From the IMG/VR virus record IMGVR_UViG_3300034683_000192, positions 1-64,000 of that record: a DNA stretch of 64,000 bases, one strand, 5' to 3'. Under the pieces are notes generated by a model, which saw only the letters and a list, made by a program, of their open reading frames with translations, was not told the origin of the DNA and did not search any database. The DNA comes from a virus. A program made the translations under genes and the position numbers. Shown here piece by piece: positions 1,541 through 60,119 of the stretch. Within the stretch, counting starts at the first letter, position 1, and the number at the start of each line of letters is the position of its first letter.

Positions 1541-1550
1541 TTTCGTCTCC

Positions 1551-2705: not shown

Positions 2706-2727
2706 ATAGATATCCTTGGTCGTATAA

Positions 2728-2868
2728 TTAAATACGGCCATCTCCTGAAATAGGGATGCATTCCTGTTCTTGTACAGCGGAGAATGTTGCTGAGTTTTCT
2801 TCGGAATTGCACTTACGGGGTGGCGATGCATACTCCATCCTACGTGCTCTGCCAATGGCTATCGGCAT
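2728..2868 (-). CDS. Small 46-residue hypothetical protein
   Basis: ATG at 2868 follows a very strong ribosome site (AAAGGAGAAACGT) and gives a 46-residue protein starting MPIAIGRARRMEYASPP, basic at the N-terminus, with two cysteines and no recognisable domain. It is the first frame after the TATATTAC promoter motif at 2975-2982. Its stop lies 22 bases before the chosen start of the 384-residue gene, so the two are probably co-transcribed. The ribosome site and position are the main evidence. Confidence 0.55.
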   Translation of the reverse strand: MPIAIGRARRMEYASPPRKCNSEENSATFSAVQEQECIPISGDGRI

Positions 2869-2974
2869 ACGTTTCTCCTTTGTGGTGACTATTGACCGCC
2901 AAATGAGGTTAATGAAGCTTCGGGTATAATGACGCTTAAATCCCAATAGCAAATCCGTAAGGCTTATCTGAAAT

Positions 2975-2982
2975 GTAATATA
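2975..2982 (-). promoter_or_regulatory. Early-type promoter motif TATATTAC
   Basis: Minus strand reads TATATATTACATTTCAG, 107 bases upstream of the small gene at 2868 and just after the terminator at 2996-3027. It is identical to the core seen at six other intergenic sites here. The assignment rests on that recurrence and on recalled phiKZ-group early promoters. Confidence 0.6.
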
Positions 2983-2995
2983 TACTTAAAGCTAA

Positions 2996-3027
2996 GATGG
3001 AAGGATGGGTTTCCCCATCCCTCCATC
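2996..3027 (-). terminator. Hairpin terminator after 3039-4397
   Basis: Arms GATGGAAGGATGGG and CCCATCCCTCCATC pair around a TTTC loop with one mismatch, just downstream of the stop of the 452-residue gene. Confidence 0.65.
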
Positions 3028-3038
3028 TGAATTTTCCA

Positions 3039-32082: not shown

Positions 32083-32526
32083 GGAAAAGATATCTGGTCG
32101 AGTTTTACGGATCCGTCGGATGATTGCATTGCAGAATACTGTAATAGCTACAACGATTGGATTCGTTCATTAGCCGTGGCTAGTGATTCTAGAGTCAAGG
32201 AATTCTCGACCAGAATCTTCAATGAGTCGTATCTCCAAACTCGGTACAAAACTTTGTATGTTCCTGACATCAAAAAACCTACAGGGTTTTTGTTCTCAGG
32301 TACGGACAGTCAGTCCGTGGAAAAGAAAACATACATCGACGAGGTTCTGGACTTCATGCTTACGTCCAATGTTCATGAGTCTCTCGGAATCACTTTCCTT
32401 GAACTCATGAACATGGATGTGGGTATTTACGACAAGATCAAGAAGGCGATAATCGATCATCGACCAAAAGAGAGCGATCAAGCTCTTCAGCTCAAAAAAG
32501 AACTGGAGAAAGGATTTAAGAAATGA
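32047..32526 (+). CDS. -1 frame extension giving a 969-residue fusion
   Basis: After slippage the frame reads YPFDGVHRLAPSGKDIWSSF and continues for 159 residues to a TGA that overlaps the chaperonin start (ATGA). The only standalone start would be GTG 32176, which has no ribosome site and would discard about 45 protein-like codons. The fusion would be made at a fixed ratio to the 818-residue product, as tail-assembly chaperones such as lambda gpG-GT are. A one-base deletion in the T-run is the alternative. Confidence 0.7.
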   Translation, partial: YPFDGVHRLAPSGKDIWSSFTDPSDDCIAEYCNSYNDWIRSLAVASDSRVKEFSTRIFNESYLQTRYKTLYVPDIKKPTGFLFSGTDSQSVEKKTYIDEVLDFMLTSNVHESLGITFLELMNMDVGIYDKIKKAIIDHRPKESDQALQLKKELEKGFKK

Positions 32527-34469
32527 GTCAGGAACGTATCAATCTGCGAGCTCATCACGACGTCACGAACCTCGCGAAAACTGCAGAACTCGACAAGGTC
32601 ATGACGGAGACCTTGTACATGTTCATCGATCAGCTCAAACTCATCTGCGGTCCCTTCTCGAGGAATGCTCTGGTTCTTCAGCAGGAACATGGGATTCCCT
32701 CGAACCAGCTGAGTACTGCGAATGACAACAGGTACTTCATGCGTGATGGTGCGCACATCATCAGTGCGACTGAATGTGTGAGTCCTGTACAGCAATACCT
32801 CAAGTCGCTCATCCACTATGTGGGTACTCGAGTTGACAAGTCGTGCAAAGACGGAACGACTACGTCAATGATTGCGACATGCTCCGCAATCATTCAGGCG
32901 ATTGCTCTGAAAAAAGCACTTCGTTCCACTCCGCTGTTCAAGATCGAAAAAGCGACTGCGGAAGTCTGCGATGAACTCGCCGAAAGAATGAAGAAACACG
33001 TCATCACTGTCGAAGACGTCATGTCGAGTACCGGGTGCTCTCACAAACAAGCTCTCGGTGCACTGACTTTCATTCACGTGTACACTGCGACTGGTGGTGA
33101 CGTCGATGTTGCTACTGCAGTATCGGAATATTTCTCCACTCTTCCTGCCGCAGTGTGGGGAGAATCCATCCCGTGGAGATCATCGACAGTAGAGACCAAT
33201 GAATTTCGGTGCAAACCAGTTCGTCTGGAATACGAACTTGAAATCGATGCAATGAACATCACGATACAGCACAACAATCACGATTACCGTAAGTTCTACA
33301 AATCGGACAATGCGGACGTGCTCGTGATGTATCAAGGTCTCAATGATGCATCGATCGCAACTGAAGATCTTTTCCAGTATATCACCAGTCGGGTTGATTC
33401 TGGAAATCTGACTCCGCTCATCATCATGGTTCCTGCACTTGACAACCACTATTCGTCAGGGTGCATTGAACGACTCAACGCAATCTCCGAACAATACAAG
33501 ACGCAAATTCTCGTCGTGACGTACTCGGTACTGAACAACCGATTCAATTCTCCGTGGGCTGCTCTTGCAATCACTGGGAAAGCGAACGTTCCGCTCTACG
33601 ACGAGAAAGAAGACATCGAAAAATGTGTCATCAAGGGCGTAGAAGTACTCATATCCTACAAATACATCAAGTTCAACAACTTGGTACCGAAGGATGATCG
33701 TGTACCTGATGAGGATCTCACGCATCCAGGTATTTTGTATCCTGACGATTATCCTCATTTCACCGATACGTACAATCGTATTTTGCGTGAACGAGAACTC
33801 GTGAAAGATGCACACCGAGAAGTAGTGGAAGAACGTGAAGAAGTCGAGAAGGCTTTTGCGAATCTTTCTGCGAAACGCGGCATGGCTCTCTACCTTGGTG
33901 GACGTACGCACGATCAGAAAGCTCTTCTGGCAGTAATTGAAGATGCTGCTGGATCAGCTCAAGCTGTAGCCACAAGTGGTGTGATCACTAACGCAATTTC
34001 TCGTGTGGTTAGGGAATGCAGAATCGCAAGAACTGACCCGTCCACGAAACATAAGTCAGAGTTGCATCTACTCATCTGGGAACTCCTTGAACGTACATTC
34101 GCGATGGTGGAAGGCACTCTCGTCGGAACGATGTCCGTACAAGAACACCACGATGAGTGGAAAACGTATAATGAGCTGATGGACTCGGCATATTCGGACA
34201 AATTCACGTATGTCGACCTGGTCAATCTTATGAACCAGGGATCCATGGAACTTCGGTCGTCTGTCGGCGCATTTTCTGGGATCATTGATCCGAGAAAAGA
34301 AATTCGGGAACAGGTTCTTTCCGAATGGGAAACTCAAGGATATCCTCCCACTCAAGCAGCCAGAATGACGAGTGAACTTCTTGGTCGTATCTCTGAAGTC
34401 GCCATGCGTGCAGGGATGGTCGAGATGTTTATCGTACCTGGTGGTGCGTGGGTGTCTGACAAGGAGTAA
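32523..34469 (+). CDS. GroEL-like chaperonin (phage-encoded)
   Basis: 648 residues, about 100 longer than GroEL. The N-terminus matches GroEL order: CGPFSRNALVLQ (like LGPKGRNVVLD), then DGAHII (like DGVSVA), then the ATP-site DGTTTSMIATCSAII at 110-124 with the catalytic-type Asp110. The C-terminal LGGRTHDQKALLAVIEDAAGSAQAVATSGVI follows GroEL GAATE...RVEDALHATRAAVEEGVV, with the hydrolytic Asp kept. The apical domain is divergent and the GGM tail is missing. Known phage homologues include gp146 of phage EL, which works without GroES. It starts by ATGA overlap with the frameshifted gene. Likely client: a phage virion protein. Confidence 0.88.
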   Translation: MSQERINLRAHHDVTNLAKTAELDKVMTETLYMFIDQLKLICGPFSRNALVLQQEHGIPSNQLSTANDNRYFMRDGAHIISATECVSPVQQYLKSLIHYVGTRVDKSCKDGTTTSMIATCSAIIQAIALKKALRSTPLFKIEKATAEVCDELAERMKKHVITVEDVMSSTGCSHKQALGALTFIHVYTATGGDVDVATAVSEYFSTLPAAVWGESIPWRSSTVETNEFRCKPVRLEYELEIDAMNITIQHNNHDYRKFYKSDNADVLVMYQGLNDASIATEDLFQYITSRVDSGNLTPLIIMVPALDNHYSSGCIERLNAISEQYKTQILVVTYSVLNNRFNSPWAALAITGKANVPLYDEKEDIEKCVIKGVEVLISYKYIKFNNLVPKDDRVPDEDLTHPGILYPDDYPHFTDTYNRILRERELVKDAHREVVEEREEVEKAFANLSAKRGMALYLGGRTHDQKALLAVIEDAAGSAQAVATSGVITNAISRVVRECRIARTDPSTKHKSELHLLIWELLERTFAMVEGTLVGTMSVQEHHDEWKTYNELMDSAYSDKFTYVDLVNLMNQGSMELRSSVGAFSGIIDPRKEIREQVLSEWETQGYPPTQAARMTSELLGRISEVAMRAGMVEMFIVPGGAWVSDKE

Positions 34470-39355: not shown

Positions 39356-40930
39356 TTACGCTATTGCGCGGTGACGCAGTTTCGCTGAGAGTGCGTAGAG
39401 ATCGTTATTGATGAGAGCTTCCACGAGTTTCTGTTGTTTCTCGTAGTCTGCTGACAATCTACCTGTGAGCAGCATAGCCAGTACCGTGGTGGGATTAGCG
39501 TACTGCACGAGATAGTCGTATATCGTCCGTCTGATTCTATCACCATACGAACCTTTTGCTTTCTCGAGTTCTTTTTCGAGCTTAGCATAGTCCGCAAGAT
39601 AATGATTCAGTACGTCAGTATTTTTGAGTTCATTCTTGAACATTACGTTGGCGTTTTGAATGAGTCTTTGGATTCTGTTGTATTGCTCTTCGTAATCTAC
39701 GGGAGCAAGAGCAAATCCTCCGAGCCACGCATAGACACCGACGCAAAATTCGAGATAGAGTGTGAACATAGTCGACTTACGAAGTCGAGTACTTTCGATC
39801 ACTCCAGTTGTAACTGAGATAATTCCGAATGCTTTTTCGAGCTTATTCAGAACAGATGAGAGATGTCCACCAGCACCATGTCTGGAAACAAACTCATCTG
39901 CCAATCTCTCCTGCATATACAGGTTATGATGCGTTTTCATCTGATCGCTGGATTTGCCAGATGAATCAGACATGAGTGTAAATTCCGTGGCTAGTCCATT
40001 TGCCAAAAATCCAATGTGGTACACAATCGCAACATTGAGTATTACCGACAGTACAATTGTCAGGATTGTTTCGATCACGTGACCAATCAGAGAAGCAACA
40101 GCACTTCCATATGAATCGAGATCGATACTCGACAAATGTTCTACTGTCTGTACCGCTTGAGTTATTACATTCACCATCTCTTTACTGATAGCGCCTTTCT
40201 TCGCCATTTCGTTAAGGTATGGTGCACCTGACTTATTGAATTCAGCCACAATCACCTTAGGATCGAGACTCTTGACAACGTCAGGGATATGTGTGGTGAG
40301 TCGTTCAGTTACGGCAAACCAATCTCCACTTCGCTCCACCATCGTTAAGAGATGTCCGATTTCGTGGAGATAGATTGCCGCTAATTCTTGTGCAGTAGGT
40401 TCTTCACAGATCTTCTCTGGAATGAACTCGTGGAGAAGAAATGCGAACATGGGATCCATGTACAATGCGCAAGAGATCGGACGATTGTTGCTCTTTCCGA
40501 AAGTACTCTTCGAAAGTTTTCCAGTTGAGATGTTGAGGAGGTTATGAAGCTCCATCATTTCCTTCAAAGATTCGTTGGGAGTCTTTGGAGGAGTTCTCTG
40601 TCCTGTCTGCATTGTCACGATAGTCTCAGCGTTACGATAATTGTCGAGAGACAGATTAATCGCAAAGAGACCAGTGATGCGACGAGTACCTGTCATTACC
40701 ACTTTGGTAACATCGATGTTCGTTTCTTTTTTGATTACTGCGACGAACTTTGGAAGAGTAGTCGTTTGTACATACTTGTACATTGCTACGATCAGTGAGT
40801 TTCTTCCAGTATCACCTTTTGCTCTGAGTCCGTCACGGTAATCTATTGCATCCTGAAATACCGTAGCCAGAGCTTTCAAAAGAGATGACTCAGATTGAAA
40901 GTGAATCGCTTCGAGTGCACGCAGGAACAT
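39356..40930 (-). CDS. Zinc-metallopeptidase-like internal virion protein
   Basis: 524 residues. The zinc site His189-Glu-Ile-Gly-His193 (LHEIGHLLTMV) and the later ERLADEFVSRHG (Glu341...Asp345) reproduce the HExxH plus ExxxD layout of M48 peptidases. One or two membrane helices lie between them (about 283-310), again M48-like. The N-terminus RALEAIHF contains an Ala-Leu-Glu processing-type motif as in the neighbouring internal head proteins. It is the last gene of their operon, next to 40933. A virion-carried protease acting in the cell envelope or head is likely. The substrate is unknown. Confidence 0.75.
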   Translation of the reverse strand: MFLRALEAIHFQSESSLLKALATVFQDAIDYRDGLRAKGDTGRNSLIVAMYKYVQTTTLPKFVAVIKKETNIDVTKVVMTGTRRITGLFAINLSLDNYRNAETIVTMQTGQRTPPKTPNESLKEMMELHNLLNISTGKLSKSTFGKSNNRPISCALYMDPMFAFLLHEFIPEKICEEPTAQELAAIYLHEIGHLLTMVERSGDWFAVTERLTTHIPDVVKSLDPKVIVAEFNKSGAPYLNEMAKKGAISKEMVNVITQAVQTVEHLSSIDLDSYGSAVASLIGHVIETILTIVLSVILNVAIVYHIGFLANGLATEFTLMSDSSGKSSDQMKTHHNLYMQERLADEFVSRHGAGGHLSSVLNKLEKAFGIISVTTGVIESTRLRKSTMFTLYLEFCVGVYAWLGGFALAPVDYEEQYNRIQRLIQNANVMFKNELKNTDVLNHYLADYAKLEKELEKAKGSYGDRIRRTIYDYLVQYANPTTVLAMLLTGRLSADYEKQQKLVEALINNDLYALSAKLRHRAIA

Positions 40931-40932
40931 GA

Positions 40933-41982
40933 CTATGCTCCTTTACCGGATTCGGATTTAGCGTGGCGAAGCGCTTTAACTCCAATTTCCGTGATTCTCT
41001 TTCTTCTGAAGTTGACAGTAGTGTTGATTTGACGAAGACCAGCAAATATAGCAAGAACCATTGCGATCTGGTCCTGGATATCTGTGATATTCGTGACCAC
41101 TATTTCCTTATTGATACTTCCATCACGAAGAAGTTCCTGTTCGGATCTCTTAAGATCCTTTTGGTATTCTCCGAGATTGTCGACGAGTTTCTTCAGGTCT
41201 CTGTATCTTCCCCACATGGCAGCATCATACATCCTGTTGATGTCACCAATATCATCGAGAGAATGAAACTGAAGTGCATCCAACGTAGTTTCTTCATTCT
41301 TTTGAAACGGAGAAGCATACGCCGAAGAAGTCTTTTTGATTGTGATTCCGAGTATGGAAAGATCAGTAGTTACTGCACTGGTCATCCATGGATTCTCGGA
41401 AGTCTGGTGTGTGGTCAGTTCACGGATTCTTCGCTTGATCTCCGAATGAGCTTGTGTCAACAGAAGTTTCGTGGATCTATCATACGCATCAATGATGGCA
41501 CGAAATTCCGTACGAGTACACATCTGAGAGATGAGTTGACTTCTGAAGAACGCAGTGGCTTCTTTCTTCTGATCAGATGAGCTTTTCCGGAAAAGCTCAT
41601 TGAAGTCTTCGTAACATGCCTCTGCATTATCTCGAATTCTCCGATCGATATGGAAAATCTTCACGAAGATATTCGTAATCGTCGAAACGATCTTTCCGAT
41701 GAGATTGTACACAGAAGAAAAGAGTCTCTTGATGAAACTCGTGATCATCTGCGTGACTTCGGTAGATTCTATCCCGTACCCTTCAGTCAGGATATCGTGC
41801 AATTCCTCAGTACCATGAGAAATAGCGTGTGTACCGAATCTGTAGTACTGATGGACTGTATTCATTTTTCGGAGCATGATGAGTTCGTCGTCGAGAGATC
41901 CGAGCATCTCACAGACACCATCTCCTGCATCTAGAAATGATGCACCAGGATCTTTCAGCAGCTGAACGAAAGTGCTGTTCAT
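40933..41982 (-). CDS. Internal head-like protein A
   Basis: 349 residues. A leader of about 72 residues ends in Gly-Ile-Glu|Ser (70-73), with Gly-Thr-Glu at 57-59. After it come amphipathic helices EVTQMITSFIKRLFSSVYNL and a basic helical body. The leader, processing motif and hydrophobic helix parallel the adjoining genes to 45496. In phiKZ, inner-body proteins are cut after [S/A/G]-x-E by the head protease. I infer an ejected or inner-body protein. The gene lies three bases upstream of the peptidase gene. Confidence 0.75.
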   Translation of the reverse strand: MNSTFVQLLKDPGASFLDAGDGVCEMLGSLDDELIMLRKMNTVHQYYRFGTHAISHGTEELHDILTEGYGIESTEVTQMITSFIKRLFSSVYNLIGKIVSTITNIFVKIFHIDRRIRDNAEACYEDFNELFRKSSSDQKKEATAFFRSQLISQMCTRTEFRAIIDAYDRSTKLLLTQAHSEIKRRIRELTTHQTSENPWMTSAVTTDLSILGITIKKTSSAYASPFQKNEETTLDALQFHSLDDIGDINRMYDAAMWGRYRDLKKLVDNLGEYQKDLKRSEQELLRDGSINKEIVVTNITDIQDQIAMVLAIFAGLRQINTTVNFRRKRITEIGVKALRHAKSESGKGA

Positions 41983-41988
41983 GATCGA

Positions 41989-43128
41989 TTACACTCCGAG
42001 TTTCACGGCGGTTGTCAGAATCTTGTGGTACGCGATGATTTCGTCTACAGCTACTGCAAGTTTTGTCTGCAGTACCATATACGAACTGATGTTCGATACC
42101 ATTACGGTAAGCTGTCGAACTTGTTCGTATATGTGATCTCCTGATTGGAGATTCTCCATAAACTTGGGATTTTTGCGAAGCTGTGTGAGCTTGATTTCGC
42201 ACATCTTCTGAATCCCAGAAAGAGCATCGAGTCTGGATGCTGTGTCATTCGCCAGTTTTTCCAGAGGAATGACATACTCATTACAGATTGTCGTCAATGC
42301 CTCAGGACTGTACCCAAGATTCTCAAGTGTTGCCTTATTGGTAACACTGAGTTTGTCTTTGAAAGTACTTCCAAATACCACGCCATGCAAAGCCTTTTCA
42401 GGATCTGGATCGTGTTGATTGATATTCGGAAACTTAAGTCCAATTGCTTCTGCTGCTTCCAAGAATATCGGATCTTTGAATGCAGTAGATGCGTCAATCT
42501 TTGATGATGTGACTTGCTGTGTAGGTCTATCCAACTGAGTCAGGATAGCCTGCGCAGTAGCTTGTACAGTGTCAATATTCGTGAACTTATTGACGTTCTT
42601 GCAGAGATACATCGTGTTCTTTGCAAAAGTGTCATAGAAGGAAAAATCACATGCGGGTTCTATTTCGATCACACTGAATTTCTTTCTGAGTTCAGGAGAC
42701 TTCGAAATAGTCTGTTCCATAAGACGAATGTTTCCTTGAGTAACTTGGCTGTTCAGTTTGGTTCGATCATAGAGACGACCAAAGAACTCAGTCAATTTCT
42801 TCAGGAGTTCGGAAATGAATACAGTCACAGCAGAAAGTGTATTACTGATAACCTGGATAAATCCGCCAATGGACTCGAGTCCAAGTTCAGGATCTGGATC
42901 AGTACTGTGAACAGCAGCGATCATCGCAAGCTTCACAGGGTCTGTCGTGGGTTCCGAAAGATACTTGTATTTCTCCATCGTCTTAAGACTGATGGAAAGA
43001 TTGCAAAGTCCGGTAACGTATACTCCATGCAGATGTGCACGAGCTCTTTCGAGTACGAGTTGGGACGCTACATCTTCAGGAGGAAGATTGTCTCCACCCG
43101 GACAAATCGTGAAAGTGGATATCGGCAT
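41989..43128 (-). CDS. Internal head-like protein B
   Basis: 379 residues from ATG 43128, chosen for AAGGAGTTTGATC. The frame opens 30 bases earlier without a site. The processing-type motif Gly-Leu-Glu|Ser is at 83-86, followed by amphipathic GGFIQVISNTLSAVTVFISE. ENLGYSPEALTTICNEYV near 270 carries the Gly-Tyr helix motif shared with proteins C, E and F. It is probably a virion protein cut during head maturation. No enzymatic motif. Confidence 0.78.
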   Translation of the reverse strand: MPISTFTICPGGDNLPPEDVASQLVLERARAHLHGVYVTGLCNLSISLKTMEKYKYLSEPTTDPVKLAMIAAVHSTDPDPELGLESIGGFIQVISNTLSAVTVFISELLKKLTEFFGRLYDRTKLNSQVTQGNIRLMEQTISKSPELRKKFSVIEIEPACDFSFYDTFAKNTMYLCKNVNKFTNIDTVQATAQAILTQLDRPTQQVTSSKIDASTAFKDPIFLEAAEAIGLKFPNINQHDPDPEKALHGVVFGSTFKDKLSVTNKATLENLGYSPEALTTICNEYVIPLEKLANDTASRLDALSGIQKMCEIKLTQLRKNPKFMENLQSGDHIYEQVRQLTVMVSNISSYMVLQTKLAVAVDEIIAYHKILTTAVKLGV

Positions 43129-43193
43129 GATCAAACTCCTTATCAGGGGTAAAAGCATATCATTGGTAGTACATAAATTTTACACATATACCG

Positions 43194-43222
43194 AGATGAG
43201 GAGCCATTTAGGCTCCTCATCT
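43194..43222 (-). terminator. Hairpin terminator after 43239-44297
   Basis: Perfect arms AGATGAGGAGCC and GGCTCCTCATCT with ATTTA loop. Confidence 0.75.
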
Positions 43223-43238
43223 TCAAATGGAATTTTCA

Positions 43239-44297
43239 TTATTTCGTGGGTTGGAGTTTCAGAGCTTCGTAAACGCACTTTACGATATCTGCGATTTTGT
43301 AGGAATAAGCGAGTATCGCAGTTGAGAGTTTGTGGAACAGTCCTACAAGCTGGGAAACTTCTTTCGGAAGATTCTCAAGAACTTCCTGGTACTGTTCTTT
43401 CTGTGCGTCATCGTCTTTGAATTTCTGTTTGAGTTTGGTGATGTCATTTGTCACTTTGTCAAGTGACCTCGTCATCTTCTCCATCTGTCCTTTGAAAGGA
43501 GCGATATGCTTTTCCATGATTCGGAGAAGATCGAGAATCTCCGTATAGTCGTATCCGAGTTCACCAATAGTAGATGACGTCTTGGTGTTGGTGAATACAG
43601 ATTCGAAGATTGGGAGATCTTCCTCAAAGGAAATTCCAATGACCTTAAGGTCATCAGTATACTTCTCTCCAAGGATAGATGCATAGTCGAGCTTCATTTC
43701 GACTTTGGTATTTCCGCCATCGAGAATTTCGCTGACTTGACGATCGAGTTTCGATACGTCGAATTTCAGCAGCTTCTGCATGGTCGAGTCGATCATGTTG
43801 AGGACATGTTCGACATCTCTTCTCGCAGGTACTGTTTCCGAAATTTTGATCTTGTCAAGATCTCCTCGATGTTTATCGAAGAGAGGACGAAGTTTTCTGA
43901 GATTACCTTCGTTGGTGGCGCGTACATTCTTGGTGAGACCAAAGGTCTTTCTGATGAAATCCCAAAGACCCATGGTGAGTCGTTTGAAGAAATTATAAAT
44001 CATCGTAAAGATGTCACTTACAATTCCTTCTACTGCTCCGAGAACTTCATCATACTTGTACTGTGGATTTTCATCCATATACAGATGAAATTCTCTGTCG
44101 TTCTTCAGAAATCTTTCGATTCCTGGGGAGACCGTCCGATCCTTCTTGAGTACCATCAGAACTTCAGCATACTGAGCTCCAATGTCGGACAAGTCTATGC
44201 CCATGGAACATGTATTTGACAGCGATACCGTACTGTCGACGACGTCTTCAATACTTGCGGTATCGAATACGCTGTCCAGAGCGATAGCTTGAACCAT
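43239..44297 (-). CDS. Internal head-like protein C
   Basis: 352 residues. The processing-type motif Ala-Val-Glu|Gly is at 88-91, followed by IVSDIFTMIYNFFKRLTMG, an amphipathic helix pattern shared with A, B and D. The Gly-Tyr motif ELGYDYTEILDLLRIMEK occurs near 250. The C-terminal half is charged coiled coil. It has its own terminator, and the upstream gene is terminated at 44339-44368, so it is probably transcribed separately. Confidence 0.78.
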   Translation of the reverse strand: MVQAIALDSVFDTASIEDVVDSTVSLSNTCSMGIDLSDIGAQYAEVLMVLKKDRTVSPGIERFLKNDREFHLYMDENPQYKYDEVLGAVEGIVSDIFTMIYNFFKRLTMGLWDFIRKTFGLTKNVRATNEGNLRKLRPLFDKHRGDLDKIKISETVPARRDVEHVLNMIDSTMQKLLKFDVSKLDRQVSEILDGGNTKVEMKLDYASILGEKYTDDLKVIGISFEEDLPIFESVFTNTKTSSTIGELGYDYTEILDLLRIMEKHIAPFKGQMEKMTRSLDKVTNDITKLKQKFKDDDAQKEQYQEVLENLPKEVSQLVGLFHKLSTAILAYSYKIADIVKCVYEALKLQPTK

Positions 44298-44338
44298 GAT
44301 CGATCCTCCAACAAAAAATAGTTAATAAGCATATAGTG

Positions 44339-44368
44339 ACCGGGGAAGGGTCGAAACCCTCCCCCGGT
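44339..44368 (-). terminator. Hairpin terminator after 44414-45496
   Basis: ACCGGGGAAGGG and CCCTCCCCCGGT around TCGAA with one mismatch. Confidence 0.7.
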
Positions 44369-44413
44369 TGTTCATGCTAGGCTTTTTGCGACTAGAGGTC
44401 GCAGGAACGAGTC

Positions 44414-45496
44414 CTAGGCCTTGCAGGCGCGCAGAGCGGCGCAGGCGGAGATGTACGCGCGGGGCACGAGCGAACCACGCGAAGCCACCTTGGTGGCCAC
44501 CTTGGACAGTTCGGAACCGGCCTTGCGCAGACGATCGATGGCCTTCTTGTCGTCATCGTTCTTGGCTTCGCCGGACTTTTCCAGGGCGGAAGCGCGCTTG
44601 ATGCCCATGTCGCACAGGTTCTTGAACGACTTCACCGAGCTGGGGTATTCGGCAAGACCGCCGACGATCAGCTGCGCGGTCTTGAAACCATCGCCCTTGG
44701 CGAAAGCCAGATCCCATTCGGAATCCTTCAGGGTCATGCTGTCGGTAGCCAGGGGCTTTTCCACGGTGGTGATCGAATCACCATCACGCTTCAGACCCAG
44801 GGGTTCGATCTTGTCGGAACCCAGGAGCGAAGCCACGTAGCCGTCGGTACCTTCGGCCTTGCCAGCGTCAGCACTCTTCACCGCGTCGATACCGGTAGAG
44901 ACTGCACCGGCAAACGAGATGAACTGACCCTTCTTCAGCAGGCTGAACTTCTTGTCGCTGGCCTTCTTGTCGTCGATCGAGTTCACTTCAGACAGGCTTT
45001 CCTTCGCGCGTTTGATGGCGGAAGCGAAGGAGGTGAACATGTTCCGGACCTTGGCAGCCAGAGCCACGATCTTTTCCCAGAGGCTCTTGAAGAACTTCTT
45101 CACGGCTTCCCAACCCTTGCGGATCGAGTCGCTGATGGCTTCCATGGCCATCTGGGCTTCGTTGTGGTTGCGGCCAGTGGCGTCCAGGCTTTCGACGGCG
45201 GGAATGGGGCGACCGGAGAAACGGGCCAGGGCATCACCACGGTTGATGATGGCGAGCACACCAGGCTGCAGACCGTGGTCCTTCAGCACCGTGTACATGT
45301 GTTCCAGAGCTTCGATGTCGTCGGCAGCGGAATCGGCTGCATCGGCATCGGCCACGACGGAAGCGGCTTCTTCAACGATCGAAGAAGCTTCTTCGGTACG
45401 ATCGGCGACCTGAATGTCCACGTCGATGGTGGTTTCGTCGGCGGTCGATTCGGCATCGTCCATGCGGGCGTTCAGCCCTTCAAGACCTCTCATCAT
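44414..45496 (-). CDS. Abundant internal head-like protein D
   Basis: 360 residues. An acidic Ala/Glu/Asp-rich leader carries two processing-type sites, Ala-Val-Glu|Ser (100-103) and Ala-Met-Glu|Ala (117-120). The helix ISDSIRKGWEAVKKFFKSLW follows, then a Lys/Ala-rich body. Its DNA is markedly GC-rich with optimised codons compared with neighbours A-C. That suggests it is the most abundant of the group. An acidic removable leader with a basic mature part would suit a protein packed with DNA. Confidence 0.8.
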   Translation of the reverse strand: MMRGLEGLNARMDDAESTADETTIDVDIQVADRTEEASSIVEEAASVVADADAADSAADDIEALEHMYTVLKDHGLQPGVLAIINRGDALARFSGRPIPAVESLDATGRNHNEAQMAMEAISDSIRKGWEAVKKFFKSLWEKIVALAAKVRNMFTSFASAIKRAKESLSEVNSIDDKKASDKKFSLLKKGQFISFAGAVSTGIDAVKSADAGKAEGTDGYVASLLGSDKIEPLGLKRDGDSITTVEKPLATDSMTLKDSEWDLAFAKGDGFKTAQLIVGGLAEYPSSVKSFKNLCDMGIKRASALEKSGEAKNDDDKKAIDRLRKAGSELSKVATKVASRGSLVPRAYISACAALRACKA

Positions 45497-45602: not shown

Positions 45603-46472
45603 CTAGAGGTTCCAACTTGTCTGCATGAGCAGCAATGTCAGATAGCGATCAACGTCACCATCGATCTGCATAGGACGTTCAACCGATTGGGGAAGAAGCT
45701 TGAATCTGGGGTCGAATACAAAAACCCCTTCAGGTGTACGAACAGGGAATCGCTCAAGCATAGGACGCAGCTTCTTCACGTAGTCCTGCTGCATGACGAT
45801 ATCGCATTGCCTCCAGTATGGGCGATCACCCTTAGCGAAGAGGCTGTATAGTATCGTCAGAACAAAGCTTGCCTGAGTTCTTGCGATTTTGGATGTGCGA
45901 GTAAACAGATCTTCATCATCTCTGATGGGACGTGTGAACTCTCTCAAGTATGAGATGAACTTGTCGTGTAATTCCTGATAGATGAATCTGTCAGGACGAA
46001 CATCGACTTCGGGATCTTTCAACTCAATGTGTCTGAGTGACAACACCGCAGCTTCGAATTCGTGACCGATTTCGTAACCTTTGAAATTGCCGTCGAGCCC
46101 ACTGATGATGTTGCACACATCCATAGGCAAGCCGAACGATCTCTGTGACGGTACGTTAAATTCCATGAAGGCTCTCGCAAAGTCAGCAATGACCATCATT
46201 GCGTTGAATGCGATATCCTTACGGATTTCTTTTCCGTACATGGTAACGTATTTACCCCAGGATGTTCTCGGGACACTCGTCACTTCGTTGTGGTAAACTT
46301 GAGCATGTGCGTATGCATGTTCTTCTGAGATGAAGTCAGTATTGATTTCACGCAGAAGACGAAGACCATACATCACGAATGCTTGGTCGTCAGGGCTTCC
46401 TTTGATGGCAGAGATCCCCGCTTGATAGCGGATATCCATCATCGATTTTCCATTGGTGCTCAGCAATTCCAT
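45603..46472 (-). CDS. Hypothetical virion protein, 289 residues
   Basis: ATG 46472 behind AAAAGGAATAGCC, two bases past the upstream stop. Soluble, helical and mixed charge, with no processing-type leader, membrane segment or catalytic motif. It begins MELLSTNGKSMMDIRYQAG. By position between head-like and tail-like genes it is probably structural or an assembly factor. Confidence 0.72.
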   Translation of the reverse strand: MELLSTNGKSMMDIRYQAGISAIKGSPDDQAFVMYGLRLLREINTDFISEEHAYAHAQVYHNEVTSVPRTSWGKYVTMYGKEIRKDIAFNAMMVIADFARAFMEFNVPSQRSFGLPMDVCNIISGLDGNFKGYEIGHEFEAAVLSLRHIELKDPEVDVRPDRFIYQELHDKFISYLREFTRPIRDDEDLFTRTSKIARTQASFVLTILYSLFAKGDRPYWRQCDIVMQQDYVKKLRPMLERFPVRTPEGVFVFDPRFKLLPQSVERPMQIDGDVDRYLTLLLMQTSWNL

Positions 46473-46474
46473 GG

Positions 46475-47458
46475 CTATTCCTTTTCGTACGCGGCGATCT
46501 TACGATCGACATCGGTGATAGCCTTGTCGTAAGCGTCGATAATCTTCATCAGCTTCTGGTATTCAGGGCTGTTCGGATCGACTCCACTTGCGTTCATGCG
46601 AAGAAGAGTGACGCTGGTTTCGAGCCATTCTTTGAAGTCTTTGTTCTTGATGTATCTGGAATGCATCCAGTCGTCCCAGAGAGACAGAATGCCAGTCAGG
46701 AAGTTAAACCCGATGACACCCTGTTCGAGGTAGTGTGATGCAGTACCAGTCAAAGACGATGGAGAAAAGAAGTCAAGGAAGGATCGATTGTTCGCATAAA
46801 GCAGAAGATCTTGATTCTTTTGCTTAAGCGCAGCGACATCCTTCAGGAAAGAATAGTTTCGATCCTTGTTGACTGCATTGTTCAGGATCTTCGCGTATTC
46901 GTCCATATGCTTCTTCATGAAGTCAGCGCGATATCCGATTACGGTGGAATCCTGCTTGACACAAGTCTTCAGGAAATGATCCCACACGCACTGAGTGTAC
47001 TTGATGTACAGATCAGTTTCACGCAAGATCCCAAGCAGCATCACGTTGGAGATGCTGCAATCGAACATGTTGATAGCTTCGCCAGGTACGAGCTTGTCGA
47101 TACCTTTTCGAACTTCGCTCAGGATCTTGAGAAGAGTGATGCCAGCAAGCTTCGTTGCTCCAAACATCTGATCTCGTTCAGCGACGAGTGCTCCCTTCGT
47201 CAGGAGCTTACCGATATTTGGGATGATGTACCCGACATCGTTCTTGTTCGACTTATCGAACTGATGCTGATAGTACTTATCGTAAAATCCATGCATTGCA
47301 GTCTTGTCAAACGCACTGATGGTTTTCACGATGTTGTCGACATCACTGATTTGCGAAGCGACGATCTGGTTGATCTGGTCCTTTGTCAACGCCTTCATCT
47401 TGATCTTGGACTTGAGCAGATCGAGAATCGACGTTTCGAGCGCTTTGTAGATGTTCAT
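46475..47458 (-). CDS. Hypothetical virion protein, 327 residues
   Basis: ATG 47458 behind AAGGAGCAGATCA. It starts MNIYKALETSILDLLKSKIK, where Ala-Leu-Glu at 6-8 resembles the processing motif but is followed by Thr and lies very near the start, so I do not claim cleavage. The rest is helical. Part of the tightly packed minus operon 45603-48567. Not recognised. Confidence 0.72.
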   Translation of the reverse strand: MNIYKALETSILDLLKSKIKMKALTKDQINQIVASQISDVDNIVKTISAFDKTAMHGFYDKYYQHQFDKSNKNDVGYIIPNIGKLLTKGALVAERDQMFGATKLAGITLLKILSEVRKGIDKLVPGEAINMFDCSISNVMLLGILRETDLYIKYTQCVWDHFLKTCVKQDSTVIGYRADFMKKHMDEYAKILNNAVNKDRNYSFLKDVAALKQKNQDLLLYANNRSFLDFFSPSSLTGTASHYLEQGVIGFNFLTGILSLWDDWMHSRYIKNKDFKEWLETSVTLLRMNASGVDPNSPEYQKLMKIIDAYDKAITDVDRKIAAYEKE

Positions 47459-47469: not shown

Positions 47470-48567
47470 TTAAAACTTCGGCGCTGTGGACTGATAGTAA
47501 GCCTGCATGATCGACTTCAGATCATACCGTTCATTTTTCGCCTGGGACTTCAGCTGATCGAACTTGTATTCGCCGTGCTTGTCAGAACCGTGAATATAAA
47601 CTTCCACGACCTCGTACGACGCGTCGATGACGGCTACCATCATCGAGAAAGTGCGGGAGAAGTACTTGTTGCGATCTCCCGGCTTCTTGAAATTGCAGCC
47701 GTTCTTATGGCACCACTCGTCGAATTCCCGCTTCTGGTAGATATGCACCGCATTGGCGATGTTCTGCTTTTCAGGATAGAACCCGACGAGCTTCAGCAGG
47801 AAGTTGAACAAGCCATTTCTCTGCTCGTTCATCATGGTATCGAGCATACCAGTCTTGTCGTCCTTACGAGCTCTGTTGCGCTTCTTCAGAAGATCAAGCT
47901 CGAAGAAGAAATCCTGAATGAATCGGATTTCACCGACAGAGGCCTGGAACCAACGCTTGAACATGGACGGCTTAAAGTTGACGGAGAAGAATGCCTCGGC
48001 AACATTGTCAGGAATGAACATCGGCATGAGCTGCACGAATACGTTCACTGACAACTGATTCTTCGGATTTCCGTCGATGTTGAACTTGATTTCGATGATC
48101 TTTCCGCTCGGCAGATTCACCTTGTCAGGAATCTCGATAGCACGAGCTCCGCCTTGTTGTCCCTCGATCTTGTCACCGATGATGACGTTCATCTTGCCAC
48201 CATTCCAGTTCTCCATACCTTTGATAAGGTCAGCGGAATCCTGGAACTGAAGCATTTCTGTGGCGATGATATCGAGAGCCTGTTTCACGGTACGAGATGA
48301 ATCGACCATGGTGTTAAGCTGCATCGCAGTCAAAATCCAGCCGATGTACATGTTTTGCATGGTCAGAAGCAGATCACCAAGGATCTGTTCATCAGCACAT
48401 TCACGCTGGATGTAGACACGGGAGGCCACCATCGAACGCTTTATGTGTTGGGGAAGACTTTTGGAAATCCTGTCCTCACCCGTCCGGATAAGATCGATGA
48501 GGTTCTTGAAGCTAAGATCCCCATTCTTGTCACGGAGATCGATGTCGAATCCGATGAGACTTGCCAT
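47470..48567 (-). CDS. Hypothetical virion or tail protein, 365 residues
   Basis: ATG 48567 (MASLIGFDIDLRDKNGDL) is chosen for GGAGGCCTCCACAA. An in-frame start at 48618 has no site. Helical N-terminus, a beta-rich middle (VNLPSGKIIEIKFNIDGN) and a basic C-terminal half. It heads the minus operon and is divergent from the baseplate genes at 48662, so late expression with them is likely. Confidence 0.75.
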   Translation of the reverse strand: MASLIGFDIDLRDKNGDLSFKNLIDLIRTGEDRISKSLPQHIKRSMVASRVYIQRECADEQILGDLLLTMQNMYIGWILTAMQLNTMVDSSRTVKQALDIIATEMLQFQDSADLIKGMENWNGGKMNVIIGDKIEGQQGGARAIEIPDKVNLPSGKIIEIKFNIDGNPKNQLSVNVFVQLMPMFIPDNVAEAFFSVNFKPSMFKRWFQASVGEIRFIQDFFFELDLLKKRNRARKDDKTGMLDTMMNEQRNGLFNFLLKLVGFYPEKQNIANAVHIYQKREFDEWCHKNGCNFKKPGDRNKYFSRTFSMMVAVIDASYEVVEVYIHGSDKHGEYKFDQLKSQAKNERYDLKSIMQAYYQSTAPKF

Positions 48568-48661
48568 TTGTGGAGGCCTCCAGAAAAAGAATTTTGCCGA
48601 GAATAGGTGGTCGACCATACTATGATTTTTTACAAATCCTCAGATTTGAGAGGTATTTCCA

Positions 48662-49885
48662 ATGGCCGATTCTACAAAAGCCAATTATGCCGATCAGGAA
48701 GATGCTCTTCGTCGGCAACTTGAAGCTACCATAGAAGCAGAACTCAAACTTTTCTTCGAATCGGTGCTGGAACACTCATATAAGTATTCCGCAGCCGGTT
48801 CCCACTTTGCACAATTTCATAAGGCTCTTGCCCGTATAGATAGATTTGGTAACAGAACAATAACCCAGAATCACGAGTATTCTGGTTTGGTGTTTTTTAC
48901 AAGACCGACTATCAATTTTACAGAAGCAAACTTGAGACAGCACCGAATTCTCAACATGCTGGAGACACTTGATCCCCAGTCGACTCAATTCATGATTCGT
49001 ATGCTGCTCGATAGCGATTTGTCACAAACTCCATATTTTCAAGATCTTGTCGGGAGATCTCCTCTTATCGATGGGAATTCTCCTTTCATTACTCCTCTTT
49101 CAAACTGCTGTGATACACTCGGTGGTGCACCAAACCTTACCATGGAGACGTATACCACTGAAGGTGGTTTGTTCTCTGAAGCACAGTCAATGCCAGTTGG
49201 ATCGGATAGAAGCGCAAAACCTATCGATCTGTCACTAGCATTTACTGATATTCAGGGTGGTATTTGTCATGCCATTTTGATGTACTGGTTTTTGTACATG
49301 GATCTTCTCCAGCGTGGGGAAGTTGTTCAGTACACTAGAGATTTTGAACAACGTCGTATGGGATGGACGTCATCCATTTATCGATTCATGCTCGATCCGA
49401 CGAGACAGTACATTACCAAGTGGTGTAAGTTTACAGGATGCTTTCCTACAAGTATCCCATCTGCATCAGTACTTGACTACAACTCGGCAGAAGGATTTGT
49501 AGAAGCAGCAAAAAAGATTAACGTAACGTTTAAATGCAACCATGTTGGATATCCTCAGGATCCAGTTATCTTGAAGGAGTTCAACATGCTTGTCAAGAAA
49601 TTCTGCGGGAGCATCGATACCTCAGCTTATGTGAGACTTACGACAAATCCAGAACACAACTACGTTGGGTTGCCGTACATCACGACTACACAATACGGCC
49701 CGAGATTGGATTTCTATGCTCCTAAGTACGAACTCGAAGATACTGTGATTCAGGACCTCGAACAAGCTTCTGAGAATATCGCACAAAAGAAGCTTGAATA
49801 CGAAGCACGAATCAAAGCACTTCGTGCACAGTACTCAAATCAGCAGAATCAGACTTCTTCTGACCCTAACATTGTCTACGTTTAA
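48662..49885 (+). CDS. Baseplate or tail protein, 407 residues
   Basis: ATG 48662 behind AGAGGTATTTCCA. A mixed helical and beta protein: a helical start, a middle with GDLVVQYTR-like strands and a coiled-coil end (QDLEQASENIAQKKLEYEAR). Followed 11 bases later by the 960-residue gp6-like gene, so probably a partner in the same wedge or neck complex. No family recognised by sequence alone. Confidence 0.72.
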   Translation: MADSTKANYADQEDALRRQLEATIEAELKLFFESVLEHSYKYSAAGSHFAQFHKALARIDRFGNRTITQNHEYSGLVFFTRPTINFTEANLRQHRILNMLETLDPQSTQFMIRMLLDSDLSQTPYFQDLVGRSPLIDGNSPFITPLSNCCDTLGGAPNLTMETYTTEGGLFSEAQSMPVGSDRSAKPIDLSLAFTDIQGGICHAILMYWFLYMDLLQRGEVVQYTRDFEQRRMGWTSSIYRFMLDPTRQYITKWCKFTGCFPTSIPSASVLDYNSAEGFVEAAKKINVTFKCNHVGYPQDPVILKEFNMLVKKFCGSIDTSAYVRLTTNPEHNYVGLPYITTTQYGPRLDFYAPKYELEDTVIQDLEQASENIAQKKLEYEARIKALRAQYSNQQNQTSSDPNIVYV

Positions 49886-49896: not shown

Positions 49897-52779
49897 ATGT
49901 CATTGGCTGACACGAACACTCCTCTCAATATTCTCAAGAATCCGATCAATGTACAGAAACTCGTTGTTGACGACGTTCTCGATCGGTGGCAAGGTAAGCT
50001 TACCATGGTTGATCCAAACAACGTGGCAATGCACCTTATCGAAATGGCATCTACTCTTACTGCAAATTTCTCTGCTTCCGCAGAACGAGCACTTGCTGCT
50101 GGGAATAGCCTTCGAGCTCAGACGTCGGAAGATCTGGCAAAGCACATGTCAGACTACGATTACGTGGGAATGTATTCCACCCCATCGACGACGCAACTTC
50201 TTCTTACTCTCTCGAAGAATCATCTCATCACTTACGGTAAAGATTTCAATGACGTCTACAAAAAGATCGTTATCCCTAAGGACACGATCTTTGTTGTGGG
50301 TGATACGGCATTTGGAATCTACTATCCAATCGAGATAAGAATCAATAAGTCCACAGGTGCTGTTCTTGTGGTTCACGATACAGAAGAAACCAATCCTCTT
50401 CTGGAGCTCAATCAGAACATCGTGAACTTCACCGAACAGACTTTTCTCAATACGAAATTTCTTGGTATCAAGATTCCTGTCTATCAGTTCGTCCGTCAGG
50501 TACTGACTGAAGATACGATCCCTGGCCGAGGATTTGCAAAACAGTATTCTTACATTGACAAGTTCTACGCAGTCAGAATTTTTACGATTCTTAATGACAA
50601 GAAAGTAGAACTGTCACAGTCATTTGCGGTCGATACCTATGACCCAACCAAACCGACAGCGAGACTCATGGTTTATCCTGAGCAGAATAAGTTTACAGTC
50701 AACATTCCTCAAGTCTATTTCTCCAATGGACAAATAGGAAGTAAAATCATTATCGAGCTCTTCGTCACGAAAGGAGAGATCGATATGGATATCAGTACAA
50801 TCCCTCCTGAAAGTATCCGCTGTCAGTTCAATACATCGGTCGTAAATGACCCGTATTCAAAGGTACTGGACACTCACCCAGATGCTACCCTCGCTGTGGC
50901 TACGAGTCGTATCTCTGGTGGTTCTGATGGACTTACATTTGAAGAGAGACGGCAGCGGGTAGTCAATAGCGCATTCTACGCTACATCTCTTACTACCCCC
51001 ATGGATCTTCAGGCATTCTTTGAAGATTCAGGATTCCGTGCAGTTAAGTACAAGGATGATCTCACCAATCTTATCTACTTCGTATATCGTGCGCTTGAAG
51101 ACGATACGAATACGATTGTTCCTGCTACCACAGGACAGATCAAGTTGGTGGAATCTACTCCAACTACTGTATCCAGCATTAAGAAATATCTCGATGGATT
51201 GATCACGATCCTTCCGACCACGCTCTATCGATATTCGTCCAGCGATCAAGCATGTGCTCCTGTGACTGATACCGATATGACTCTTCTTGCACAAATGACC
51301 AAAAAAGAATTGGTCAGTGAATTCAACTCGACGGAGTACATGAGATCGCCATTTCACATTCGTCTCATTCAAGACGGACGATACTCGAAAGCGAGTTCGT
51401 ATAACTTGATGAATCCGTATGTGGAAGATATCGTATTTGAAAAAGAAAACTCGAATATTCTCGCGCAGATGGTTACTGGTGCTGCCACCATTCATCATCA
51501 GAATAATGGTTCTGGTGGGTATCGTGTACAGTTTCTGGTAAACAAATCGCAGGACCTTCTTCAAATTCCTGAAGATCAATTGTACGTGTACCTCTATACT
51601 GAATCCTCGGATGGAATGCTCGTTGGACTCAGACTCAACTATATCGGAATGCTTGGTGAGGCATACCTCTACGATGGAGTGATCGAAACAGATTACTACA
51701 TCTCAAGAGATCACCTGATCAATGCAACATCCCTTACTGACGGTGTAACTGAATGGGAACATCTCATCAGTCTTAAGGGTAAGTTCCATCTGGTATTCAT
51801 GGTCAACAAAGACTATTTCTCTGGAGTGTATACGGAACCATCCATGTATACTGGTGTTCCGCAGAAACTCCAGTCGAAGTATGCTGTCATGATTCGTCAG
51901 TCGTGTACGATCGAACTTGGTCACGCACTTGACGATGTAGTCTATAACGACACAGAACTTTCGTGGACTGGTAAAGACTATGCCAGATGGTTGGAGAATG
52001 TCTACATGACGTATCCGACTGATGTGTATCAGACAGACGAGAATGGAATTCCTGTTCTTGTTCCTGATGCAGAAGGTGTACCTCAACTGGTCAAACTGCA
52101 CGATGCTGGAGATGTCATTTACGATGACTATAACCAGCCAAGAATTCTCTACGCTGAAGGATCCGTCAGATACGATCAGGAAGGAAAACCTATCATCATC
52201 TCGGATCGAGTAAAGCAGTACTACATCAATGCACTCATGGTTGATGCAAGGCTGTATCTTAGTGAACATCCCACACAAAAGACGTACCGAGAAAAGCTGA
52301 CCAAAGTACTTGAGTCTTACTTTACTACGGTACGAACTGCAATCGATAAACTTCTCGAACGTGACTTCATGTATTTCCGACCACTCAGGACGATGGGTAA
52401 TGCCAAGTTCTATATCGGTGATGGCGCTGTGATTAACATGGCGCTCAACATGAAGTTCAAGTTCAAGTGTCACGTAGCTGGATCTATTGTTGCAGATACA
52501 GCAATGCAACAAGTGATCAAAGAAGCGATCATTGCTATCGTTGAACCTCTCATCAAGGTATCGCCGATATCTTTGACCGACATTGCAAATCAGGTTAAAG
52601 CAAAAATCGATTCGATCGAATCGATAGATGTTCTCGGGATCAACGATACCGTGGATCTTCAGACCATCTCGATCGATGACAATAGCGTACAGCCGTCGAT
52701 TTCGCAGGAACTCTATCTGACTGAGTCAGGTACTCTTGCGGTACAAAAGGCTGTCGATATTGAGTTCGTTTCGATTTAG
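49897..52779 (+). CDS. Baseplate wedge protein, T4 gp6-like / baseplate-J-like
   Basis: 960 residues. The centre (GGSDGLTFEERRQRVVNSAF, then TPMDLQAFFEDSGFRAVKYK near 335-385) fits the baseplate-J pattern: Gly-Gly-x-Asp, a Glu-Glu-Arg-x-Arg helix and T-x-x-D-x-x. Before it lies a wedge-like N-terminus, after it repeated beta domains and a C-terminal helical bundle. The length exceeds T4 gp6 (660). It would form the contractile-tail baseplate ring. A terminator follows. Confidence 0.65.
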   Translation: MSLADTNTPLNILKNPINVQKLVVDDVLDRWQGKLTMVDPNNVAMHLIEMASTLTANFSASAERALAAGNSLRAQTSEDLAKHMSDYDYVGMYSTPSTTQLLLTLSKNHLITYGKDFNDVYKKIVIPKDTIFVVGDTAFGIYYPIEIRINKSTGAVLVVHDTEETNPLLELNQNIVNFTEQTFLNTKFLGIKIPVYQFVRQVLTEDTIPGRGFAKQYSYIDKFYAVRIFTILNDKKVELSQSFAVDTYDPTKPTARLMVYPEQNKFTVNIPQVYFSNGQIGSKIIIELFVTKGEIDMDISTIPPESIRCQFNTSVVNDPYSKVLDTHPDATLAVATSRISGGSDGLTFEERRQRVVNSAFYATSLTTPMDLQAFFEDSGFRAVKYKDDLTNLIYFVYRALEDDTNTIVPATTGQIKLVESTPTTVSSIKKYLDGLITILPTTLYRYSSSDQACAPVTDTDMTLLAQMTKKELVSEFNSTEYMRSPFHIRLIQDGRYSKASSYNLMNPYVEDIVFEKENSNILAQMVTGAATIHHQNNGSGGYRVQFLVNKSQDLLQIPEDQLYVYLYTESSDGMLVGLRLNYIGMLGEAYLYDGVIETDYYISRDHLINATSLTDGVTEWEHLISLKGKFHLVFMVNKDYFSGVYTEPSMYTGVPQKLQSKYAVMIRQSCTIELGHALDDVVYNDTELSWTGKDYARWLENVYMTYPTDVYQTDENGIPVLVPDAEGVPQLVKLHDAGDVIYDDYNQPRILYAEGSVRYDQEGKPIIISDRVKQYYINALMVDARLYLSEHPTQKTYREKLTKVLESYFTTVRTAIDKLLERDFMYFRPLRTMGNAKFYIGDGAVINMALNMKFKFKCHVAGSIVADTAMQQVIKEAIIAIVEPLIKVSPISLTDIANQVKAKIDSIESIDVLGINDTVDLQTISIDDNSVQPSISQELYLTESGTLAVQKAVDIEFVSI

Positions 52780-55347: not shown

Positions 55348-55464
55348 GATTTACCTCTCTAATGTGTTGGAGATTCACAACCTCTATAGCATCACGACAT
55401 AATGTATGTAGGTGTTGTAACAATCCTATGTGTCTGTTTATTTTACCGGCAAAAGGAGAACCCC

Positions 55465-56358
55465 ATGGTTGGCTTCAGTGTGAAACTTCTTCAGACAGAC
55501 GGAAGCGAAGATTTCGCTAATCTGTATGAAGAACTGAAGTACGATCTCCAAATAACTTCTGCAGGGACGGAAGGGTTCGGAGATGACGTACTTACGGTAG
55601 CTTCCGCCAGTCTGTCCTACATTTCTGAGAAACTCGGAAAGTTGTCAGTCAAACTGGTACACTCTCTTCGGAATTCCATGGAACTCATTGTTCTGAGGTA
55701 TTCCTCCATCGTGTTTCGGTGGCAAAAAAGAATCAGCGCAAATCTTTCCAAGATCAACAACGATCGTTTCAGTGAAAGAAAGGCATCGATTGTTGACAAA
55801 GAGCAACTCCTTCTTCGTATCTCTGCTGTACAAAAACTTCACCACGTTCTCGATAACGTCGAACTTGTGTGTGAAGCACCAGTGAAATCCAATTCGGTCG
55901 ATTGGCGTACACCAGAATTCATGCAGGCGTATGACGCCATGATGAAGATTGGTTTCGATGCCAACCGATTCGATCTCGTGAAGAAAGCTTCCGCCGTCTA
56001 CGATGAAGCTCGTACTAAAGGTACCCTTGATGCACATGGGTATACTGTATCGGATATCGAGGAACTCATCGAACTGATCAAACCTCTTGCGCATTATGCT
56101 CAATCAAATCAGGCAAAAGCGCTTGCAAAGAGATTTGTCGATTACTCTGACAAGCTCGTGAAGTATGAAACGTCTCTTCGTGAACAAACTGATCTCGATG
56201 ACTTTGAGCGGCAAGAGAGACTCAGTGTACTGAACATTCGGATAGCCAGACTTTGGTGGCTGTCACACTTCATCAAAGCCGCTAACGTTCTGGCAACGGA
56301 TGTCGTTAAAGATGTCCTCACTATCTGCAAGATCGCAGAACAGTGCATCGAAGCTTAA
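55465..56358 (+). CDS. Internal head-like protein E
   Basis: 297 residues from ATG 55465 behind AAAAGGAGAACCCC. The processing-type motif Gly-Thr-Glu|Gly is at 34-37, then a hydrophobic helix (VLTVASASLSYISEKLGKLS). The Gly-Tyr motif AHGYTVSDIEELIELIKPL is near residue 195. Strongly helical. The same layout as B and C links it to the inner-head family across the genome. Co-transcribed with F. Confidence 0.75.
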   Translation: MVGFSVKLLQTDGSEDFANLYEELKYDLQITSAGTEGFGDDVLTVASASLSYISEKLGKLSVKLVHSLRNSMELIVLRYSSIVFRWQKRISANLSKINNDRFSERKASIVDKEQLLLRISAVQKLHHVLDNVELVCEAPVKSNSVDWRTPEFMQAYDAMMKIGFDANRFDLVKKASAVYDEARTKGTLDAHGYTVSDIEELIELIKPLAHYAQSNQAKALAKRFVDYSDKLVKYETSLREQTDLDDFERQERLSVLNIRIARLWWLSHFIKAANVLATDVVKDVLTICKIAEQCIEA

Positions 56359-59354: not shown

Positions 59355-60119
59355 ATGTCCCAGATGAAGAGTATTTCGGATCTCGACGAAATCGGCGTTG
59401 AAGGCTTTCGCCCATTCGACAGATTCAAGCTTTGGCTCAATGAGTCAGGAAGCATGATTCAGACGATGCAGAACTCTCTGAAGTTCTTTACTGACCACTA
59501 CACCGAAGCAGAAATATCTAATGCTCTTCGTCCAATAAGATCTCCCAACGTACGCAAGAGTGAAATCATTCGGTACATGGAAAAAATTTCGAACATCATT
59601 TTGATGTACGATAAGATACAGCAGCAGTTGGTCAACGCCAAATGCTATCTCGAAGTATTCAAACACCCAGTATCGAAGGGTATGGATATTCCTGAAATTA
59701 AGGAAACTCAGAAACTGTTCAAGGAAGTCGATTGTTCCGTCTGGATCGACCTTGACAAGAGATTCTATATCGATTGGGACTATTCCAAATTCGAAGATCG
59801 CATCTTTGCAGAAGATGCTTCGCTTTGGATTTCTCAGGACGTCAAAGGTATTCGAGATGTCGAAATACTCATCAATGCATGTCTTAAGGCCAGAGATATT
59901 TCCAATCGAACGAATAAGTCGATTTATTACGGACTGATTGACCGCACCCCGCTCTTCCCCAAAGGAATGACTCCTACCGAACAGCAGATTCTTCTGGCGA
60001 AATCAAATCGTCTGAGATATCTTGCCGTCACCAACATGTTGTACGACGGTGGAACACTTATGATGAAAATGTGGTACATCATTTCTACCTTGTGCATCAG
60101 ACTGAGAAAGAATCTGTAG
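59355..60119 (+). CDS. Internal head-like protein G (short leader)
   Basis: 254 residues. Processing-type motif Gly-Val-Glu|Gly at 14-17, followed by FRPFDRFKLWLNESGSMIQT. Helical, positively charged body ending RLRKNL. The leader is much shorter than in A-F, so membership is less sure. Followed by a terminator. Confidence 0.68.
   Translation: MSQMKSISDLDEIGVEGFRPFDRFKLWLNESGSMIQTMQNSLKFFTDHYTEAEISNALRPIRSPNVRKSEIIRYMEKISNIILMYDKIQQQLVNAKCYLEVFKHPVSKGMDIPEIKETQKLFKEVDCSVWIDLDKRFYIDWDYSKFEDRIFAEDASLWISQDVKGIRDVEILINACLKARDISNRTNKSIYYGLIDRTPLFPKGMTPTEQQILLAKSNRLRYLAVTNMLYDGGTLMMKMWYIISTLCIRLRKNL

Follow-up and report, generated by a model that had tools for sequence, protein, structure and literature searches.

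A probable inner-body protein cluster with predicted head-protease sites in an uncultured phiKZ-related giant phage

The window analysed here, the first 64 kb (64,000 nucleotides) of a 199,880-base virus record, encodes a virion RNA polymerase beta subunit (phrog_3148) and retains the gene order of phages phiKZ and SPN3US around gp87-gp88-gp89. Homologues of phiKZ gp87 (49897-52779; phrog_3248, E=5e-170) and gp88 (48662-49885; phrog_3196, E=3e-51) occupy the plus strand, alongside a minus-strand homologue of the inner-body protein known as gp89 in phiKZ and gp50 in SPN3US (47470-48618; phrog_3239, E=1e-37; phmmer to gp89, E=2e-16). A probable counterpart of phiKZ gp90 and SPN3US gp51 lies in the same slot as those genes (46475-47458, minus strand) and ranks first among 196 genes when scored with a gp90 profile (E=0.002). 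The gene at 45603-46472 was considered as a gp91 counterpart and rejected, having no match with the gp91 profile. Beyond the gp89 homologue, two genes away, stand four adjacent minus-strand genes (40933-41982, 41989-43158, 43239-44297 and 44414-45496) in the slot of phiKZ gp90-gp97 and SPN3US gp51-gp54. The counterpart cluster of phiKZ encodes five of its six abundant inner-body proteins (PMC13282480). At the nucleotide level, the cluster shows no similarity to known phages. Elsewhere in the window, the plus-strand gene 32523-34469 weakly matches a phage GroEL-like chaperonin family (phrog_5725, E=4e-7).

On the evidence of its sequence, the gene at 44414-45496 is a phiKZ internal head (inner-body) protein of the family that includes phiKZ gp93, gp95 and gp162 and SPN3US gp53 and gp54. 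Its match to Pfam PF12699 reaches 57.3 bits against a curated cut-off of 27 (E=2e-15), the PHROG annotation is likewise internal head protein, and the gene sits in a cluster of the gp89-gp97 type adjoining the gp87, gp88 and gp89 homologues. Three cleavage sites are predicted in its product. The maturation site, AME119↓A (45140-45148), is an [SAG]-x-E motif before an amphipathic helix; it corresponds to AME↓G in the relatives L014 and L015, which also belong to PF12699, and aligns with the sLE↓glke column in the profile of known members. An extra propeptide site, AVE102↓S (45191-45199), corresponds to ALE↓S and AME↓S in the relatives. An N-terminal site, GLE6↓G (45479-45487), is GLE↓A in both relatives and is the counterpart of SLE-13 in phiKZ gp93, where an N-terminal cut has been reported (PMC5694885). 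All three proteins thus share the series GLE↓G/A, AxE↓S and AME↓A/G at an overall identity of only 25-28%. With the PF12699 proteins of phiKZ (gp93, gp94, gp95, gp162 and gp163) and SPN3US (gp53 and gp54), the protein has in common an acidic propeptide, an [SG]LE site near the N-terminus, a maturation site that precedes an amphipathic helix, and its place in the genome. It differs from them in being very diverged, with 25-28% identity to the nearest relatives found, and the record holds one PF12699 gene above the cut-off, whereas phiKZ holds five. Codon usage deviates more in this gene than in any other tested, with the capsid protein next; the bias resembles that of the capsid protein, as expected for an abundant protein, and is also high in the gp89 and gp90 counterparts. 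Structure prediction gave mean pLDDT values of 50 for this protein and 45 for that of 40933-41982, too low for a fold search, and matches to solved structures were weak and at chance level.

Immediately beyond the cluster, the minus-strand gene 39356-40930 is a homologue of SPN3US gp45 and phiKZ gp84. It matches phrog_2767 (E=1e-21), to which SPN3US gp45 also belongs (E=1e-167), a profile comparison matches it to gp84 and gp45, and it carries the M48-like zinc-peptidase signature HEIGH...ERLADEF, that is, HExxH with the downstream AD motif of this family. Like gp45 and gp84, it combines HExxH...AD(D/E)F with an N-terminal junction of the form [A/G]xE↓[AS]xxF. It differs from SPN3US gp45 in having a leader of 7 rather than 20 residues, and it lies on the inner-body side of gp87-89, whereas gp45 and gp84 lie on the gp84-86 side. 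A scan of viral contigs with this single protein returned no relatives. The predicted site, ALE7↓A (40910-40918), aligns with the proven gp45 cut ASE-20↓SIGFQ (PMC10052503, Table 2), and E7 and A8 are invariant in five homologues; the junction reads ALE↓AIHFQ in the window and AME↓AMDFQ, AME↓AMDFK and GQE↓AINFQ in relatives. A second proven SPN3US cut, ATE-130↓YYT of the capsid protein (PMC10052503, Table 2), aligns with GKE↓AFG in the major capsid protein of this phage, encoded outside the window at 189329-191641 of the record. At that column, [SAG]-x-E is present in all six sequences, including three relatives and phiKZ. The first-pass annotation had assigned the cluster a head-protease specificity like that of phiKZ. 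These two sites, homologous to sites proven in SPN3US, support that assignment and point to a protease that would cut after [A/G]-x-E here. A cut site was also sought in the gp50/gp89 homologue 47470-48618; the alignment gave no confident solution, and the position is ambiguous.

HE(I/V)GH and the downstream ADxF are conserved in 39356-40930, L014:1009-2751, L016:2564-4105, L018:2376-3911, SPN3US gp45 and phiKZ gp84. The M48-like signature thus occurs in a gp45-type head protein, a protein given only as of unknown function in the phage literature examined; PF01435 falls below its cut-off in SPN3US gp45 (E=0.003).

The other three cluster genes are probably processed head proteins and protease substrates, as judged from their sequences, but they are not proven members of that family. 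Each carries a predicted site before an amphipathic stretch: GIE72↓S (41767-41775) in 40933-41982, followed by the set's best amphipathic window; GLE95↓S (42874-42882) in 41989-43158; and AVE90↓G (44028-44036) in 43239-44297, directly before that stretch. The likely start of 41989-43158 is 43128, which has a good ribosome-binding site (AAGGAG) in front of it, and counted from there the site is GLE85. None of the three has a PF12699 match at the curated cut-off of the Pfam scan. On a broad profile built from 24 other PF12699-type proteins, without the four cluster genes, the adjacent genes take the first four places among 196, with 40933, 41989 and 43239 at ranks 2-4. The similarity of 40933 and 41989, though weak, withstands both the shuffled and the reversed control: 40933 scores 13.0 against 3.7 for its reversed sequence, with 0 of 2000 shuffles reaching its score, and 41989 scores 9.9 against 1.2, with 0 of 2000 local shuffles. 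Gene 43239 is a weak match that also surpasses all shuffles (0/2000), but its reversed sequence scores higher, and its similarity to PF12699 may be one of composition only. No relative is detectable for three of the cluster genes, and a single-protein scan of viral contigs with 41989-43158 found none.

All of the [G/A]-x-E sites that the first-pass annotation listed in seven genes are present in the sequence: those of the four adjacent genes, and GTE57↓G, GTE40↓S and GVE16↓G in the second trio (55402-56358, 56380-58272 and 59355-60119). Presence of a loose [SAG]xE in a leader is uninformative, for it occurs within the first 125 residues of 108 of the 144 other genes of the phage, and the strict [AG]xE[SGA] occurs in 13 of them. 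A position test is more discriminating. In each gene, the most amphipathic 36-residue window was located, and a strict [A/G]-x-E↓[S/G/A] was sought at its start. All four first-cluster genes pass and five of the seven listed genes do so, against one of the 144 others; with the loose motif, 16 of the 144 pass. For the four adjacent genes, whose slot was set independently by synteny, the binomial probability is about 2e-9 (strict) or 1.5e-4 (loose), whereas values for all seven would be optimistic because that set was chosen by eye. In the five passing genes, net charge runs from -4 to -18 in the leader and from +1 to +8 over the 46 residues that follow the site. Against this reading, the same-slot genes L016:1512 and L018:1284 have an amphipathic stretch with no site nearby, and L018:4239 and G006:946 fail the window or the motif criterion.

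The strongest alternative is that the substrates comprise only 44414-45496, 39356-40930, 47470-48618 and the capsid protein, the sites in 40933, 41989, 43239, 55402, 56380 and 59355 being chance occurrences of a short motif in unrelated, low-copy proteins. The abundance of the loose motif in other leaders favours this view, as do the missing homologues of 41989 and the lack of convincing family matches for the other listed genes, the ordinary codon usage of 40933, 41989 and 43239, and the fact that about 80% of SPN3US head proteins are uncleaved (PMC10052503). Chance is nevertheless an unlikely explanation, given that the strict site stands exactly before the best amphipathic window in four of four adjacent genes and that these genes lead the ranking of a profile built without them. 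It is much less probable that [A/G]-x-E is no protease site at all and instead marks where the ensuing long helix starts. The cluster sites do precede a predicted helix, and low-confidence structure models place helices there, but the motif is missing from the genome's other strongly amphipathic helices (one exception in 144), and the homologous positions in SPN3US gp45 and its capsid protein are proven cut sites (PMC10052503).

The second trio fares unevenly. On the plus strand, 55402-56358 lies on the gp84-86 side of gp87, with a likely start at 55465 from which its site is GTE36; GTE↓G (55564-55572) precedes the best amphipathic window, and the gene encodes a possible processed head protein, for which no homologue was found. 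Neither 56380-58272 nor 59355-60119, also on the plus strand, passes the position test, so that the amphipathic helices described by the first-pass annotation after each site hold for the four adjacent genes and 55402-56358, and the arrangement is unsupported in these two. With the PF12699 family profile, 55402, 56380 and 59355 score 3.7, -0.3 and -2.3 bits, outside the family. The idea of one phiKZ inner-body family spanning seven genes is accordingly narrowed: the reading is supported by PF12699 for 44414-45496 and by synteny for the cluster, and 44414-45496 is the only demonstrable member. As a whole the prediction is sound: of the seven genes, one is a firm family member, four others are probable or possible substrates, and two lack support.

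The first-pass annotation also implied a head protease elsewhere in the genome and proposed a search for a gp175-like enzyme. That search found none in the 199,880 bases with Pfam S77, phiKZ gp175, phrog_3014 or an eight-member profile. The expected enzyme, the prohead protease of phiKZ (gp175) and SPN3US (gp245) (MEROPS S80, phrog_3014), is present in the near relatives G003, G005 and G006, with phrog_3014 matches of E near 1e-28 in each of the first two and 6e-74 in the third, and conserved residues aligned. In contrast to phiKZ and SPN3US, no protease of this type is found in the record, from which the corresponding block is missing. The protease-bearing block, at 38.8-79.9 kb of G003 and 126.3-168.7 kb of G005, has no homologue of any kind in the record, and in both relatives its flanks are homologues of 193609-194334 and 4398-5072, near the two contig ends. 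The final open frame of the record runs past the contig end, and the relatives measure 235 kb (G003) and 238 kb (G005). The best reading of the record is an incomplete genome, about 240 kb in full, with a gap of about 41 kb between its ends (about 1-4400 and 194400-199880). In both near relatives, this missing stretch holds the head protease and many large genes. Because the block that houses the protease in relatives is missing here, absence from the record refutes nothing, and the gap is the gene's most likely location; missing sequence in a contig can look like the absence of an essential enzyme. That the phage has no gp175-type protease, its head proteins remaining unprocessed or being cut by another enzyme such as the HEIGH metallopeptidase-like 39356-40930, would suit the empty search and the HExxH protein within the cluster, but it is the least probable of the alternatives, as the contig ends lack the entire protease neighbourhood, the near relatives have both proteins, and the gp45 homologue is itself a protease substrate in SPN3US (PMC10052503).

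We therefore favour, with a probability of roughly 0.8, an inner-body or ejection-protein cluster of a phiKZ-related giant phage, with precursors cut by a gp175/gp245-type protease from the missing part of the genome. Precursors would enter the prohead with acidic N-terminal propeptides, and the head protease would cut after the Glu of [A/G]-x-E. Removal of the leader would leave the mature proteins with an exposed cationic amphipathic helix at their new N-terminus, and they would be packed with the DNA and probably injected. Entry, leader removal, packing and injection are drawn from phiKZ and SPN3US; we infer cleavage in this phage, injection, and the status of 40933, 41989, 43239 and 55402 as substrates. 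The same layout occurs in SPN3US gp47, where a transmembrane segment follows the cut, and the authors of that work proposed a role at the host membrane (PMC5694885). This likeness may suggest, as a proposal only, that the cut exposes a membrane-active end. The common layout of acidic leader, cut site and cationic amphipathic helix makes it testable that the leader hides such an end until head maturation.

The three neighbours resemble SPN3US gp47 and phiKZ gp86 (vertex-binding protein, PF25617) in having a leader, an [SA]xE site and a hydrophobic or amphipathic stretch, and in evolving fast. They differ in lacking a sequence match and occupying another slot. A gene in the gp47/gp86 slot of G006 (L036:946-2175) is weakly similar to PF12699 (E=5e-4), as is phiKZ gp86 (E=0.002), which suggests a common origin for the inner-body family and gp86/gp47. 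A bolder proposal, which we regard as tentative and on balance doubtful, is that 40933, 41989 and 43239 are rapidly diverging, low-copy ejection proteins, each with a cationic amphipathic helix that is masked by the acidic propeptide, is armed as a new N-terminus by the head protease and inserts into the host membrane at injection, in a phiKZ-related lineage with the inner-body and protease system and no detectable chimallin.

Chimallin, the nuclear shell protein (phrog_4795), has no match in the incomplete record, G003 or G005, whereas G006 and phiKZ are positive. By this marker, the phage does not group with the Chimalliviridae (nucleus-forming phages), as far as its incomplete record goes. 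The lineage thus lacks detectable chimallin despite a phiKZ-type polymerase, capsid and inner-body genes; G005 encodes a PhuZ-like tubulin (E=3e-11). With chimallin undetected in these three genomes, the early-infection vesicle described for phiKZ (PMC13282480) cannot simply be extended here. The kind of system is already known, and the lineage is new. The analysis extends [A/G]-x-E head processing of giant phages to an uncultured group distant from phiKZ and SPN3US, and for uncharacterised neighbouring genes it proposes particular cut sites.

A strong hairpin after 44414-45496 was considered as a special feature and rejected, since many genes of the phage end likewise. These very stable hairpins of 13-18 bp without a long T run, such as that at 44315-44380 (minus strand), are probably the terminator or mRNA-end style of the phage.
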